A stretch of DNA of 64,000 bases, taken from assembly GCF_039529835.1 (NCBI RefSeq), contig NZ_CP154262.1:3472001-3536000 (forward strand), read 5' to 3'. Position 1 is the first letter of the stretch; each line of letters opens with the position of its first letter. The notes beneath the pieces were generated by a model. It saw nothing but the letters and a program-made list of their open reading frames with translations, was not told the origin of the DNA and made no database searches. The position numbers and the translations under genes were made by a program. Source of the DNA: Arthrobacter sp. TMP15. GTDB taxonomy: Bacteria; Actinomycetota; Actinomycetes; Actinomycetales; Micrococcaceae. Below, one piece after another: positions 21,884-27,511 of this stretch.

Positions 21884-22987
21884 ATGAGTAGTAACTGGGA
21901 ACGCCTCGATGAATCACTGCGCCCGGCTGTCGCTGCTTCGGTGGCTGACTTTGAACGGACGTTGCCGGCTTTGCAGCGAGTCACCGCTGAAATGGAATCC
22001 CTTGTCAGGGACGTTCTCAGCGAGGCCGAAGATAAGCCACTTTTTGTTACCAGCCGCACCAAGAGCATTGATTCTTTCAGGGAAAAAGCGTCCCGGATGG
22101 TGTCCGAGCCGGATGCCGCCCCTGCCCTGCAATTCCCTGAGCCGCTGCGTAACCTCACTGACATGGTGGGTGTCCGGGTCATTACCACTCTGCCTGGCGA
22201 AAACGCTCTGGCCGCAAACCTGATTAAACGCAAAAGAAGCATTTTTGATTGCCGGGGCGACACGGAGAAGGACATTGGCTCCATTGAGTCCGGCACTTAT
22301 GGTTATTCCAGCCGCCACTTGATCCTACGCACCATCCAAAACGATGTGGTGCGGGCCTATCAGGAACAGCTTGACCCCGGCACCAAGGCCAATGGCAGCT
22401 ACTTTTTTGAGTGCCAGATCAGGACTATCTTTGCTCATGCCTGGAGTGAAATTGAGCACGACATACGTTTCAAGTCCCAGGATCCGCGGGCGTGGAGCCC
22501 GTACTTTGACAGGCAGTTCACGGCCACCGCGGCCATGCTTGAGACAGTTGAGTCGGCGTTTTCTGAGCTCCACGACAGGTATGAAACTGTCACAAGTTAC
22601 TGGGACACCGAGGGTGAAGGCAATATCTCACTGACGCCGAACAGGATCAAGGCTGTGTGGCAGACCCTGCTGCCTCACGTTGATAGGAAGTCCGACGACG
22701 ACTGGGGCTGGTCTGCAGAACTCGTGGCGGCCCACGGACTAGGTAAAACAGTGGACCTTGCAGCACTTCTGCAGCCCGAAATTATCTCTAATGTGCGCAA
22801 AGCCCTGGACCACAGGTACTCCCCCGGTCCTGACAGGCTCCTGGATGACCTGCTCCTGTGGCAATTCGGTGAAAGCCATATTGATCTCACTGCCGAAGAC
22901 CCTTCATCCGAGGCGACCCCACGCCGAGACAGCCTAATTCGCCGTCATCAGCAAATGCAGCGTTATCGCAAAGCCCAAGGGTTCTAG
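21884..22987 (+). CDS. RelA/SpoT-domain GTP pyrophosphokinase
   Basis: A 367-residue protein with a (p)ppGpp synthetase domain but no HD hydrolase, TGS or ACT domain, so it belongs with the small alarmone synthetase-like proteins rather than long RSH enzymes. Visible motifs: RTKSIDSFREKASRM, LTDMVGVRVITTLPGE, GYSSRHLIL and ECQIRTIFAHAWSEIEHDIR (the Glu-x-Gln-x-Arg and His/Glu region of the active site). The C-terminal ~130 residues are helical and of unknown role. It stands alone with no antitoxin-sized neighbour on its strand. Confidence 0.85.
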   Translation: MSSNWERLDESLRPAVAASVADFERTLPALQRVTAEMESLVRDVLSEAEDKPLFVTSRTKSIDSFREKASRMVSEPDAAPALQFPEPLRNLTDMVGVRVITTLPGENALAANLIKRKRSIFDCRGDTEKDIGSIESGTYGYSSRHLILRTIQNDVVRAYQEQLDPGTKANGSYFFECQIRTIFAHAWSEIEHDIRFKSQDPRAWSPYFDRQFTATAAMLETVESAFSELHDRYETVTSYWDTEGEGNISLTPNRIKAVWQTLLPHVDRKSDDDWGWSAELVAAHGLGKTVDLAALLQPEIISNVRKALDHRYSPGPDRLLDDLLLWQFGESHIDLTAEDPSSEATPRRDSLIRRHQQMQRYRKAQGF

Positions 22988-23035
22988 CGGACTGGCTGGG
23001 CAATCAGAAGCTTGGCAATCAGTAGTTTGGCAATG

Positions 23036-23093
23036 AAGAGAGTCGCCTGTGCACTATCAGGATTTCTCCTGATAGTGCACAGGCGACTCTCTT
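23036..23093. terminator. Long perfect palindromic terminator
   Basis: Arms of 26 bp (23037-23062 and 23067-23092) are perfectly complementary around a TTTC loop; the plus strand ends in a T-run (CTCTTTT). It ends the RelA/SpoT-domain gene. Confidence 0.85.
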
Positions 23094-23160
23094 TTGATGC
23101 ATAAAGTGCGCCAACTGCAGCAACGTTAAAATCGTTGACGGTTAGCTGTTTTGGGGAGTT

Positions 23161-23358
23161 TTAGCACATACGAAAGCCAAAGACGTTGCATGGAACAAAC
23201 CACATGCCGTAAGTAGTGGCTACATTGCCAGGTTTCATTGAAATATTTATATTACTGGCATTAATGGGACTGGCCTGGGCAGGTGACAGCCCCGGGGCAA
23301 GGATCAGGCCAGCGGCAAGAACTGCGGCTACGCCGACGGAGGCAATGGGGTTTTTCAT
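23161..23358 (-). CDS. Small secreted peptide of unknown function
   Basis: A 65-residue product with a clear Sec signal: MKNP, then the hydrophobic core IASVGVAAVLAAGLILAPGL and an Ala-x-Ala-type cleavage site at SPAQAS. The predicted mature peptide is about 36 residues, begins near SPINASNINISMKPG, and ends VPCNVFGFRMC, with two Cys six residues apart that could form a disulphide-closed C-terminal loop. I start it at the ATG at 23358 because GAAAGG lies upstream. It is the last element of a same-strand series: sensor kinase, micro-ORF, response regulator, this peptide. Signal, bacteriocin or structural roles are all possible; I recognise no family. Confidence 0.65.
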   Translation of the reverse strand: MKNPIASVGVAAVLAAGLILAPGLSPAQASPINASNINISMKPGNVATTYGMWFVPCNVFGFRMC

Positions 23359-23515
23359 GAGGAAACCTTTCAAGATCAATGATGCGAATCACCATGACAT
23401 GGCTGCTCCCCAGCTTAGGGCCACGCGTGCGCCAAAAGGACATCAAGAACCTTATAAACCCCTGTCTTTTTGGACAGTCTTTGGCCGGGTTTGGAACTTT
23501 TCGATCCAATAAATC

Positions 23516-24190
23516 CTAAGCGATGACCCCTGTTCGAAGCGCTGTGATAACAATCTGCAACCTGTCACGAGCCGAGAATTTCCGCCCCAAACGGACCAAG
23601 TGATATTTCACCGTTGATTCCGAAAGGTGCAGGGCGGAGGCGATCTCACTGTTGCTTTGCCCCTCGCACAGCAGCTTTAATACGTCTTCTTCTCTCTCTG
23701 AGAGTTCAATGGCGCTTCGCTGCCTGGTGGCGGGAAGGCTCTTGCGAACGTCGGCAACGAGGAGGTGCGTGACCCCTGGGTCAATCGGGCACTCGCCCGC
23801 ATGAACTTCTCTGACCGCTGCCACGATGCGCTCGGGCTTGGCATCCTTGACTACGTAACCGCTGGCCCCGGCAATGAGGGCGGATTTGAGGTACACATCG
23901 GAAATGTGGCCCGTCACAACAAGTATGCGTACCTCTGGCAGTTCGGCCACTATTCGTCGAATTGCCGCAATGCCGTCCATGACAGGCATTTGAATGTCAA
24001 TGAGCATGACGTCAGGGTGGTGTTCGTGGGCCAACCGGACGGCCTGTGCGCCGTTCTCGCCTTCGGCTACCACCGATACGTCAGTTGCTTGGGAAAGATA
24101 AGTGCGCAATGCGCCTCGGACGAATTTTTCGTCGTCCACGATGACCACGTCAATTGATTTAGTTGTTACCGCATTCAAAGTCATGGTCAC
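23516..24190 (-). CDS. NarL/LuxR-family response regulator
   Basis: A 224-residue DNA-binding response regulator. The receiver domain has the acidic pair in VVIVDDEKFVRGAL and the phospho-acceptor Asp65 in MLIDIQMPVMDG; Thr and Lys switch residues are in ILVVTGHISD and GYVVKDAKPERI. The C-terminal LuxR helix-turn-helix is LSEREEDVLKLLCEGQSNSE with HLSESTVKYHLVRLGRKF. It is the obvious partner of the histidine kinase at 24548-25765. The two are unusually far apart (357 bp) with a short peptide ORF between. Confidence 0.93.
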   Translation of the reverse strand: MTMTLNAVTTKSIDVVIVDDEKFVRGALRTYLSQATDVSVVAEGENGAQAVRLAHEHHPDVMLIDIQMPVMDGIAAIRRIVAELPEVRILVVTGHISDVYLKSALIAGASGYVVKDAKPERIVAAVREVHAGECPIDPGVTHLLVADVRKSLPATRQRSAIELSEREEDVLKLLCEGQSNSEIASALHLSESTVKYHLVRLGRKFSARDRLQIVITALRTGVIA

Positions 24191-24217
24191 AGTCTACGTA
24201 CCTAGATTCGCGGTGAT

Positions 24218-24250
24218 GGCCATAGTAGTGGCCATAGTAGTGGCCATAGG
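24218..24250. repeat. Short tandem repeat upstream of response regulator
   Basis: The 12-base unit GGCCATAGTAGT occurs twice and is followed by a partial third copy (GGCCATAG). It lies between the micro-ORF stop and the response regulator start, inside the probable leader or promoter of the regulator gene. Function unknown. Confidence 0.6.
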
Positions 24251-24262
24251 TACCAGCAACTC

Positions 24263-24370
24263 TCAGCGAGTCGGCGTTGTGGGAAAAGAACCGGCTGGCC
24301 AAATTCCTCCCGGCTTTGACGCACCCTGTTGTCCCGGGCGGGCAGCTCCAAGCAAGCGCAGTTCATTCAT
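24263..24370 (-). CDS. Candidate 35-residue micro-protein between kinase and regulator
   Basis: On the minus strand an ATG at 24370 is preceded by a strong, well-spaced Shine-Dalgarno (AGAAGGAGAAGGCC). The frame encodes 35 residues beginning MNELRLLGAARPGQQ and ending FPTTPTR before TGA. It has one Trp, several Gly and Pro, no Cys and no signal peptide. It sits in the 357-bp gap between histidine kinase and response regulator, same strand. The ribosome binding site is the main support; it could be a leader peptide, a signalling peptide precursor or simply an unused start. Confidence 0.45.
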   Translation of the reverse strand: MNELRLLGAARPGQQGASKPGGIWPAGSFPTTPTR

Positions 24371-24547
24371 GGCCTTCTCCTTCTATTAGGCGGGGAGTCG
24401 GCAACATCTTTAAGAAATTGTGCTGTCATCAGCCCCGCGTACGTTATTACGCTATGCAAGGAGAAGCCTGCATTCAATGCTCTCTCGTCAAGTCTGGCCA
24501 AAGGGACGAGGGAATCGGGCACTAGAAGAGAGAGACTGGTCAAATAG

Positions 24548-25765
24548 TCACATCGGGCGGCCGGCGAAGGGCAACACGACGTGCACACGCCACCACCCAT
24601 TAATAGGCCCGGCCTCAAGTGTGCCGCCCAATCGCGAAGCCCGTTCTCGCAGCCCAGCCAGACCAGTGCCGGAGACCGGCAGGCCCGGCTTACCAGGAGT
24701 CATCCGGTTTTGCACGCTCAACTCAATACATTCTTCTTTTACGTCCACGGAGATATCACATTCGCTGCCCCCACCGGCATGCTTGACGGCATTAGTAGCG
24801 CTTTCCTGCAACACCCGCAGGACAGTGGATCGCAACCCATTGGGAGTCCGCTCCAAGTCTCCGGATGTTGTGACACGTGTGGGGACACTAAGTCCATTGA
24901 GCATCTTCTGCGCATCGGCAATGCTCTGTGCCAAATCTATACAGGCCGGGTTGGGCGAAACATCAGAGTCCGTTCCAGGTACGCCCTGGGGAACCTCATC
25001 GGCGCGCATTGTCTGGAGAAGCCTGCGCAGGTCATCAAGTGAGTTCCGCGCCATCCCACCAATTTCGGTCAAGGCATGCGCGCGGTCACTCTCCTCTTTA
25101 GAAATCGTGCCAAGGTTTGCCTGCACCGCAATCATTGTCAGCCCATGAGTAACAACGTCATGCAATTCACGCGCCAATTCCATGCGCTGTTCAAGGGCCG
25201 CCTGAGCGGCTTTTTCCTCTGCTTCCTTTTGAGCGCGTTCAACCCGGAGGGCCTTCTCTCTCAAGAGTTTTACCGCTAATCCTGGTGTTATGAGCAGCAA
25301 CGTGGCGAATAAATAGGCCCAAAGTGCCGCCACGCTCAGCTCTGAGACACCAAATATCCAAATAATCTGCCACGCTAGAAAAAAACCAACTATAACTGCC
25401 AAACTTCGGGTGGAGACTCGGTATGCGGCAACGGCAAGCGCCCCAAACGCCAAAATAAGTGCACCGCCCGGCTGCGTGCTTGGGTACATGGCTGCCAGCA
25501 TCACCACAAAAGCTATAGCTGTCAGGCGAGGCCAGAACGCGATTGTCATCCATACAGCCCAGTAGCTGGCAGTGCCGGCCAGCGCCCACCAGGGAAATTG
25601 TCCAGTCTGCGCTTTCATGATGAACAGGCGCGTATCATCAACAGCCGAAACAGTGACTAGAACTGCGACAAGGAAAGATACCCACGCCGGAATCGGTGAA
25701 CTGCCAACTTTCAGCACCCCGGCATAGTTCGAACTACCCCGGACCTTCTCCGGTATTAGGCGCAA
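24548..25765 (-). CDS. Sensor histidine kinase (HisKA_3, DesK/NarX type)
   Basis: A 405-residue membrane kinase. About six hydrophobic helices fill residues ~25-170 with only short loops, so signal sensing is likely in or near the membrane. A coiled linker (LREKALRVERAQKEAEEKAA) leads to the HisKA_3 box ARELHDVVTHGLTMIAVQAN, where His of LHDVV is the phospho-acceptor. The HATPase region follows, with N-box VLRVLQESATNAVKHAGGG and G-box SGTGLAGLRERASRLGGTLE. The start is uncertain: TTG at 25765 or a later GTG near VLKVGSS. It pairs with the response regulator downstream. Confidence 0.9.
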   Translation of the reverse strand: MRLIPEKVRGSSNYAGVLKVGSSPIPAWVSFLVAVLVTVSAVDDTRLFIMKAQTGQFPWWALAGTASYWAVWMTIAFWPRLTAIAFVVMLAAMYPSTQPGGALILAFGALAVAAYRVSTRSLAVIVGFFLAWQIIWIFGVSELSVAALWAYLFATLLLITPGLAVKLLREKALRVERAQKEAEEKAAQAALEQRMELARELHDVVTHGLTMIAVQANLGTISKEESDRAHALTEIGGMARNSLDDLRRLLQTMRADEVPQGVPGTDSDVSPNPACIDLAQSIADAQKMLNGLSVPTRVTTSGDLERTPNGLRSTVLRVLQESATNAVKHAGGGSECDISVDVKEECIELSVQNRMTPGKPGLPVSGTGLAGLRERASRLGGTLEAGPINGWWRVHVVLPFAGRPM

Positions 25766-25925: not shown

Positions 25926-26969
25926 TCACCGCAGTACAAACCCCAATCCCAGCTCATCGTCAGCGTCCAAAGTGAATTTACCTTCGCCAACAGGGAAGGA
26001 CCGGCCACTGACTTCAACCACTACACTCTCACTTGAGCCGCCCAACTTCTCGCCCATGCTGCCAGTAACCCTGTCAACAACTCGGGCGGTGAATCGAGTG
26101 TCAATAATTGAATAGTTTTCCAGCACGTCCCCGTCCGCCAGTTGCCCAGAATCGCTCAGCAACGCCACCCGGGCGGCAGTTCCTGACCCACTGGGCGACC
26201 TGTCCACTTGCCCATCAGCAAAAACGCTCACATTGCGTTGCGCAAGTCCGGACCCGGATTCTTTGACGGGCTCGTGGAAGATCGTGCCAAAAATACCTTC
26301 CAGTTGGGTGTTCCCCGGGTGCTGCGCTGCCGGGTGCCCCGCTAGTGCGCCCGCCACTTGGTGCCCGGCGGAAACCACCTTCGCCAAGTTCGACGGCGTG
26401 ACCTCAAGACCCGCAGCAGCGGCAGGAACCGAGGCGTACAGAGCTCCACTCCATGCCAAATCAACACGCAACAACCCAAAGTCCGCGGTTTTCACCTTAA
26501 TGTCTCGCGCCACAACGTAGGAGGGCACATTGTGAAATGCCACTTCCCTGACTTTGCCACCTCCCATCGTCACCCGCGCCGTGACGCGACCCGAAGGAAT
26601 ATCAATCACAACGTCCGTCTCGCCGTCGTCCGGGGCCCTGACAAGTCCACTGCGCACAGCCCACGTTCCCAACGCCATGGTGCCGTGTCCGCAGACAGTG
26701 GAGAAACCCTCGCGGTGCCAGAATATGGCGCCAAAATGGGCCCCGGAATCATTGGGCGGCACCACAAAACCACCATACATATCGGCATGCCCGCGAGGCT
26801 CGTTGACAAGGAGCTTCCGAATTTTATCGGCATCCCCTGCAATGGCATTTTCGCGCCGTTCCAGCGCGGTACTTCCAGAAATGTCGAAAGGCAGGGCCGG
26901 GACAATCCTGAACGGCTCACCTGCTGTGTGATAGTCAAATGTTTCAATTTCCCACAATGCCGCTTTCAC
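25926..26969 (-). CDS. Proline racemase-family enzyme with Cys/Ser catalytic pair
   Basis: A 347-residue member of the proline racemase / hydroxyproline epimerase / trans-3-hydroxyproline dehydratase superfamily. I start it at the GTG at 26969 because AAAGGAGAG lies just upstream, although the frame is open a further 83 codons. The first active-site position is Cys93 (FSTVCGHGTMALG). The second, normally Cys in racemases and epimerases, is Ser260 (VDRSPSGSGTAARVA). Dehydratases of the family carry Thr or similar here, so dehydratase-type chemistry is more likely than a two-base racemization. No other hydroxyproline catabolic gene is adjacent. Confidence 0.85.
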   Translation of the reverse strand: MKAALWEIETFDYHTAGEPFRIVPALPFDISGSTALERRENAIAGDADKIRKLLVNEPRGHADMYGGFVVPPNDSGAHFGAIFWHREGFSTVCGHGTMALGTWAVRSGLVRAPDDGETDVVIDIPSGRVTARVTMGGGKVREVAFHNVPSYVVARDIKVKTADFGLLRVDLAWSGALYASVPAAAAGLEVTPSNLAKVVSAGHQVAGALAGHPAAQHPGNTQLEGIFGTIFHEPVKESGSGLAQRNVSVFADGQVDRSPSGSGTAARVALLSDSGQLADGDVLENYSIIDTRFTARVVDRVTGSMGEKLGGSSESVVVEVSGRSFPVGEGKFTLDADDELGLGFVLR

Positions 26970-27058
26970 AGTCGTCTCTCCTTTGAGCTGACAAACTCTG
27001 GCGTGGGCGGGTCCTAGGCCATTGCCGTCAATATGGCACGGTGTATTTGCCCTGTCAA

Positions 27059-27074
27059 TGTCCAGTCCTGGACA
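27059..27074. promoter_or_regulatory. Possible operator upstream of proline racemase-family gene
   Basis: Perfect inverted repeat TGTCCAG-TC-CTGGACA, about 90-105 bp upstream of the start at 26969 in the 272-bp divergent spacer shared with the WXG100 gene. The form resembles GntR-type operators, but no GntR gene is nearby and the link is inference. Confidence 0.3.
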
Positions 27075-27241
27075 CCGCTGCGTAGGCCGGTGCCGGATGG
27101 GTAGCGCTGCATGGGTAGCGCACCCCATCGACGGCTGTGGCCAAGTCGGGATAGATTCTAAGTAATCGCTCGGCAGGAACTCTCCGGTCGCAGTGAAACC
27201 ACAGCGGTAATACCGCAAATTTTTAGTGAAGGAAGTGCATC

Positions 27242-27511
27242 ATGGCAGCTGGAATGATTGGTAACGATCCCCAGGACATGGCCGATTTGGCCTCAAAGCT
27301 CGGCACCGCCATTGACCAGATCACTCAGGTCATGTCTACCCTGGACAGCAAGGCACAGTCCGTTCAGTGGGAAGGCCCCGACGCCACCCGCTTCAAGGGC
27401 ACCCAGTGGCCCACGTCCAAGAAGTCACTTGCCCGCGTCATCAGCGACCTCGGCGACGTCAAGGTCATTGTGAACAAGCAGAAGCAGCAGCAGCTCGACG
27501 CTTCCAAGTAA
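27242..27511 (+). CDS. Orphan WXG100 (ESAT-6-like) protein
   Basis: An 89-residue helical-hairpin protein with the central W-x-G turn (QWEGPDATRF) at the expected midpoint, helices on both sides, and a Lys/Gln-rich tail (KQKQQQLDASK). AAGGAAG ahead of the ATG is a good ribosome binding site. Such proteins are substrates or chaperones of type VII (ESX/Yuk) secretion. No EccC/YukB ATPase, EsxB partner or other T7SS component is in this window. It is followed by its own strong terminator. Confidence 0.85.
   Translation: MAAGMIGNDPQDMADLASKLGTAIDQITQVMSTLDSKAQSVQWEGPDATRFKGTQWPTSKKSLARVISDLGDVKVIVNKQKQQQLDASK

Follow-up and report, generated by a model that had tools for sequence, protein, structure and literature searches.

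A sensor histidine kinase, a 35-residue micro-ORF, a response regulator and a small secreted peptide, encoded side by side in a stretch of Arthrobacter sp. TMP15 DNA, may constitute an autoinducing two-component circuit: the secreted peptide, closed into a loop by two cysteines, would be sensed, and the regulator would then activate both small genes. We give this reading an even chance. Its support is that all the parts are co-inherited and their order is kept, that a palindrome is shared by the two small genes, and that the membrane domain of the kinase co-varies with the peptide. The window, i.e. the whole stretch of 64,000 nucleotides that was analysed, is part of a 3.7-Mb genome (G000:C1:3472001-3536000).

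Organization of the locus

The features of the locus, in window coordinates, are the following.

24548..25765, minus strand: sensor histidine kinase (HisKA_3) with an N-terminal membrane domain of about six helices and no sizeable outer domain (Pfam, hydropathy; orthologues in 14 of 23 genus genomes)
24534..24553, minus strand: distal palindrome-like element of the micro-ORF promoter, which overlaps the stop codon of the kinase gene and lies 42 bp above the proximal one; weak here (half site TTGACCAGTC), a clear 42-bp pair in most relatives
24492..24511, minus strand: proximal palindrome site of the micro-ORF promoter, CCTCGTCCCTTTGGCCAGAC, centred 47 bp before the -10 box; same position in relatives
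24449..24454, minus strand: putative -10 box of the micro-ORF, TAGCGT (TAGCGT or a close variant at 14 loci)
24263..24370, minus strand: micro-ORF, MNELRLLGAARPGQQGASKPGGIWPAGSFPTTPTR, conserved core GIWPxG (recurrence and codon-position pattern)
24191..24196, minus strand: -10 box TAGACT of the regulator, a putative leaderless promoter six bases before ATG 24184 (TACGTAGACT-N6-ATG in every one of the 14 loci, one of them with TAGAAT)
23516..24184, minus strand: response regulator of the NarL/LuxR type, its start now placed at ATG 24184 (Pfam Response_reg and GerE)
23462..23479, minus strand: palindrome of the secreted-peptide promoter, GACTGTCCAAAAAGACAG (at most two mismatches to consensus in 13 of 14 loci)
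23412..23417, minus strand: putative -10 box of the secreted-peptide gene, TAAGCT; the palindrome centre is 52 bp away (51-53 bp in 13 loci, with TATGCT/TAAGCT as the box)
23161..23358, minus strand: secreted peptide precursor, 65 aa, with signal peptide (~1-29), variable spacer and conserved C-terminal core ATTYGMWFVPCNVFGFRMC (alignment of relatives)
23036..23093, no strand assigned: perfect 27-bp inverted repeat with a 4-nt loop, between the peptide gene and the convergent RelA/SpoT-domain gene (sequence)

A preliminary description had set four genes on one strand at this place, and they do lie there, all on the minus strand, in the order kinase, micro-ORF, regulator, secreted peptide. The inverted repeat is likely a two-way terminator that closes the unit against the convergent RelA/SpoT-domain gene. 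An Rfam RNA was also considered for it and rejected: the matches, at 23019-23110, are those of a plain hairpin to a plant miRNA model, below gathering score.

The kinase matches the Pfam model HisKA_3 (E 1e-12) and, at 26.1 bits, falls just below the 26.4 cut-off of HATPase_c. Its residues 17-170 contain strongly hydrophobic stretches; the six helices that had been ascribed to it rest on hydropathy, which fits about that number. Outside the genus its relatives are ordinary HisKA_3 kinases of 28-38% identity, many of them aligning in the catalytic half only, and no recognised relative of the membrane domain was found there; the plasmid-borne relatives proved to be ordinary HisKA_3 kinases likewise. 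The regulator is of the LuxR type, as first described, with a Response_reg (E 1.5e-28) and a GerE domain (E 1.2e-16) in Pfam.

The nearest solved relative of the kinase is DesK, for the dimerisation domain only (profile positions 163-253); the DesK chains that have been solved are without their membrane part, which limits any comparison of membrane-domain homology; the LiaS and UhpB models match weakly. Together with the intramembrane layout, these matches speak for a kinase that monitors membrane state or envelope stress in the manner of DesK or LiaS, in which case both small products would be effectors and neither would be sensed. That explanation, which we think rather unlikely although it deserves real weight, accounts neither for the strict co-inheritance of peptide and kinase nor for the co-variation of the membrane domain with the peptide C-terminus (both below).

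The two small reading frames

Both small ORFs are real genes. The ATG of the micro-ORF is preceded here by AAGGAG and stands behind a GGAG-type Shine-Dalgarno site at every one of the 14 orthologous loci, which bears out the earlier mention of a 35-residue ORF with a strong ribosome binding site. In its core, GIWPxG(S/T), which includes a conserved tryptophan, the first and second codon positions are almost completely fixed save at one variable residue while the third positions are free, and pN/pS is 0.18 over the seven core codons. The length is 33-35 residues in all loci but that of genome G182, where the N-terminal part has lost 14 residues and the core is intact. The product had no match in Pfam or NCBIfam and shows no signal peptide, and the conserved unit includes no transporter.

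The secreted peptide, with its signal peptide and with Cys57 and Cys65 as the two C-terminal cysteines, agrees with what had been noticed at first. At the 14 loci a conserved signal peptide is followed by a spacer of variable length and sequence, then by a conserved C-terminal block, (V/T)A(S/T)TYG....C-x7-C, that ends at the stop codon. Between two genomes of the same species, the signal peptide differs by eight synonymous and no non-synonymous changes, the spacer by seven non-synonymous changes, and the last 22 codons not at all. Since the spacer varies freely and the core is fixed within the species, the active part is most likely the C-terminus, and probably only its last ~19 residues, (V/T)A(S/T)TYG...C-x7-C. 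A mature start near SPINAS, as initially proposed, fits signal-peptidase cleavage, but the spacer after it varies freely and the active part is probably shorter. A comparison of the peptide with solved structures gave nothing useful.

Conservation in relatives had been suggested as a check on the small ORFs: both are found again at each of the 14 orthologous loci. DNA of this kind has many short ORFs, yet the conserved frames, the codon-position pattern, the Shine-Dalgarno sites and the promoters, found in 14 of 14 loci, make chance reading frames scarcely conceivable.

Start of the regulator gene

The sequence TACGTAGACT-N6-ATG precedes the regulator in 14 of 14 loci (TACGTAGAAT in one), and no Shine-Dalgarno site was seen before this ATG in the 14 loci. 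For these two reasons the start is most likely ATG 24184, and not GTG 24190. The layout matches what leaderless transcripts, known from actinobacteria (e.g. PMC3898074), should show with a TANNNT -10 box.

The interval from the end of the micro-ORF to the annotated start of the regulator is 46-141 nt, and in some loci hairpins follow the micro-ORF, a disposition that would suit a leader peptide attenuating the regulator gene. Such a role is unlikely because in 14 of 14 loci a separate leaderless promoter signature for the regulator follows the micro-ORF; besides, no conserved antiterminator-like layout was seen, and the spacer between micro-ORF and regulator evolves freely (14 loci). We judge attenuation highly improbable and, like chance ORFs, close to excluded. 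A short tandem repeat (TGGCCATAGTAG), absent from the same-species genome, occupies 24216-24250 in this spacer.

A palindrome shared by the two small genes

Upstream of the peptide gene, 13 of 14 loci have the palindrome GACTGTCC-N4-GGACAG with no more than two mismatches, the exception being G239, where it is lost; in those 13 it is centred 51-53 bp before the TATGCT/TAAGCT -10 box. A related, more variable palindrome is centred 47 bp before the -10 box of the micro-ORF in 13 of 14 loci (G182 departs from this phase by one base); a second one, clear in most loci, is found 42-43 bp further up. At a score of at least 12/16, there were eight windows in 238,280 flanking positions, whereas the two short intergenic stretches of the 14 loci contained at least 20. 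The fixed spacing to the -10 box suggests that the palindrome is used by an activator. As far as sequence can tell, its sharing implies joint activation of both small genes, most simply by the neighbouring regulator, whose binding to the palindrome is the simplest reading.

A genome-wide search gave 91 sites versus 45 for the reversed control (14 genomes), i.e. about twice as many. A wider regulon was considered and not retained, the candidates (an Rpf-like transglycosylase, a subtilase, an ABC permease) not being conserved broadly enough to claim one. In the species of the window, a two-mismatch palindrome stands upstream of an Rpf-like transglycosylase with LysM (G000:C1:3182193-3182210; L133, L170-L172); a weaker copy has the same position before the Rpf-like gene in G113 and was not seen in other lineages. 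A palindrome also occurs upstream of a subtilase in G202 and G024, and two lineages (L134 and L150) have copies close to where one and the same gene begins (product MPAQKN...), next to a BPD-type ABC permease gene in the case of L134.

Distribution of the unit

A search for the secreted peptide in 395 genomes of the family gave clear matches in 14, every one from the genus of the window. The kinase is present in the same 14 of the 23 genus genomes and was not found outside the genus in a sample of 197 family genomes; a profile search with the micro-ORF over the 395 genomes again returned these 14. None of the 23 genus genomes has only part of the four-gene unit, and the order kinase, micro-ORF, regulator, peptide is kept in 14 of 14 loci. 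For one of the nine genomes without the unit, G284, the absence is uncertain, a contig end falling directly at the expected place. Weak matches to the micro-ORF in other genera (L202-L217, E 1e-4 to 0.008) look like chance, no kinase, regulator or peptide gene adjoining those that were examined. The exported peptide gene is thus dedicated, adjacent to the kinase and co-inherited with it in the same 14 genomes.

In 12 of 14 loci the unit lies between a proline racemase gene and the RelA/SpoT-domain gene. G182 and G255 have it at a second chromosomal place, with DHDPS, a second racemase and aconitase X as downstream neighbours; the unit is intact there, with the peptide gene last. The proline-racemase-family gene (25926-27218; L044/L045) adjoins the kinase upstream in 14 of 14 loci, a hydrolase gene standing between the two in G182 and G255. 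It was considered as a member of the unit and rejected: because it occurs also in six of the nine genomes without the unit, it is a neighbour and not a part. The downstream neighbour in the 12 loci, a single-domain RelA/SpoT-type protein of 367 aa (21884-22987), is present in all nine genomes that lack the unit. The neighbouring proteins comprise the racemase, RelA/SpoT, PfkB, HAD, GDPD, glycerate kinase, a LysR-type domain, DUF5997 and an amino acid permease. An 89-codon ORF on the plus strand (27242-27511), between the racemase and LysR-type genes, resembles the WXG100 type by eye, with no Pfam match at 1e-5.

Which small product is the signal

Co-variation was measured on pairwise distances, with those of the kinase catalytic domain and of the regulator held constant, in 13 related lineages and under four settings. 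The kinase membrane domain and the peptide C-terminus gave a partial r of 0.28-0.34 (p 0.003-0.007 over the four settings), which stayed between 0.25 and 0.41 when any one lineage was dropped (jackknife). The membrane domain and the micro-ORF core were not clearly correlated (r 0.04-0.19, p 0.05-0.4), and neither the catalytic domain of the kinase nor the regulator was significantly linked to the peptide C-terminus (r up to 0.19, p at least 0.08). The signal peptide of the same gene gave a weaker effect with the membrane domain (r 0.12-0.25, p 0.018 in one of the four settings), so that some shared ancestry is left in the measure; with 13 related lineages it is not fully removable. An antimicrobial made by the cell and sensed through its own regulator would produce this pattern as well.

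The preliminary description had likened the layout to peptide-sensing systems with either small product as the signal. Peptide sensing is supported, and the evidence, though indirect, makes the secreted Cys peptide a likelier kinase ligand than the micro-ORF product, since only the C-terminus of the secreted peptide co-varies consistently with the membrane domain. Alternatively, the micro-ORF product could be the pheromone, its mature part lying around GIWPxGSFP; it would leave the cell by an unknown export route and be sensed by the kinase, and the Cys peptide would only be an output, e.g. a bacteriocin or a surface-active peptide. The micro-ORF does sit between kinase and regulator, its promoter layout is the strongest and its core is short and fixed, and in known systems pheromone genes are often beside the kinase gene. 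What makes this alternative doubtful is the lack of a signal peptide and of a transporter in the conserved unit, a core that hardly varies though the membrane domain of the kinase does, without clear co-variation between them, and the loss of 14 N-part residues in G182.

Proposed circuit

With the Cys peptide as the signal, the 65-residue precursor would be exported by means of its signal peptide and then lose its spacer, to give a hydrophobic C-terminal peptide of about 15-19 residues with a ring formed by a Cys57-Cys65 disulfide. The kinase would sense this Cys-loop peptide within the membrane and phosphorylate the regulator, itself made from its own leaderless promoter. Once phosphorylated, the regulator would bind the palindrome GACTGTCC-N4-GGACAG and switch on the peptide gene through one site, which would make a positive loop; the micro-ORF, with two sites 42 bp apart, would be its most strongly wired target. 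The micro-ORF product is probably an intracellular effector or feedback partner, whose fixed GIWPxG core would act on a conserved target. We infer regulator binding and activation, peptide processing, disulfide formation, the identity of the ligand and the role of the micro-ORF.

More tentatively, we propose that this would be a two-peptide circuit not described before, combining a Sec-exported, disulfide-ring, species-specific pheromone of an actinobacterial HisKA_3 kinase with a cytoplasmic GIWPxG microprotein feeding back on the same pathway, the unit being gained or lost as one piece within the genus.

Relation to known systems

According to a review (PMC4748050), reports of quorum sensing cover only 25 of 342 actinobacterial genera, mostly on the strength of homology, and Arthrobacter is listed only for LuxR-like genes. 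The literature searched, from which subscription literature was mostly absent, showed no peptide pheromone coupled to a two-component system in this family, so that novelty is unproven. As a candidate for testing, the locus is compact: it offers the peptide, the sensor, the regulator and putative binding sites, and 13 lineages provide natural variants. The GIWPxG microprotein represents a conserved family of small proteins whose regulatory context is clear.

ComQXPA, through which Bacillus controls competence by a pheromone, resembles the unit in the classes of its kinase (ComP, HisKA_3) and regulator (ComA, NarL-type) and in the small gene beside the kinase; moreover, ComA boxes at target promoters have the same 6-4-6 palindrome geometry as the sites described here (PMC4797271). 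As to the modified tryptophan of the ComQXPA pheromone, the DNA shows a conserved Trp codon in the micro-ORF core. However, no ComQ-like prenyl transferase was found among the neighbouring proteins or the conserved neighbour clusters, the candidate ligand is a Sec-exported Cys peptide accompanied by a second, unexported micro-ORF, and beyond the genus the kinase is related only to HisKA_3 kinases in general.

As in agr, a short C-terminal peptide, ring-forming to judge by the layout, would be paired with a multi-helix kinase. The differences are the HisKA_3 kinase, the NarL-type regulator, the two cysteines, the export by a signal peptide and the lack of AgrB (PF04647, no match in the genome). 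With DesK-DesR and LiaS-LiaR the unit shares a DesK-related dimerisation domain, the intramembrane layout and a NarL-type regulator, but its kinase is co-inherited with two dedicated small genes and has a membrane domain without recognised relative outside the genus.

The Phr propeptides exported by Bacillus consist of a signal peptide, a variable pro-region and an active part at the C-terminus, and the secreted peptide follows the same plan, but with a longer core and two cysteines; its partner would be a membrane kinase, that of Phr being a cytoplasmic Rap protein. By its domains, the unit is a member of the HisKA_3 kinase/NarL-LuxR regulator two-component systems, and the circuit would work like ComP-ComA or agr while belonging to neither.
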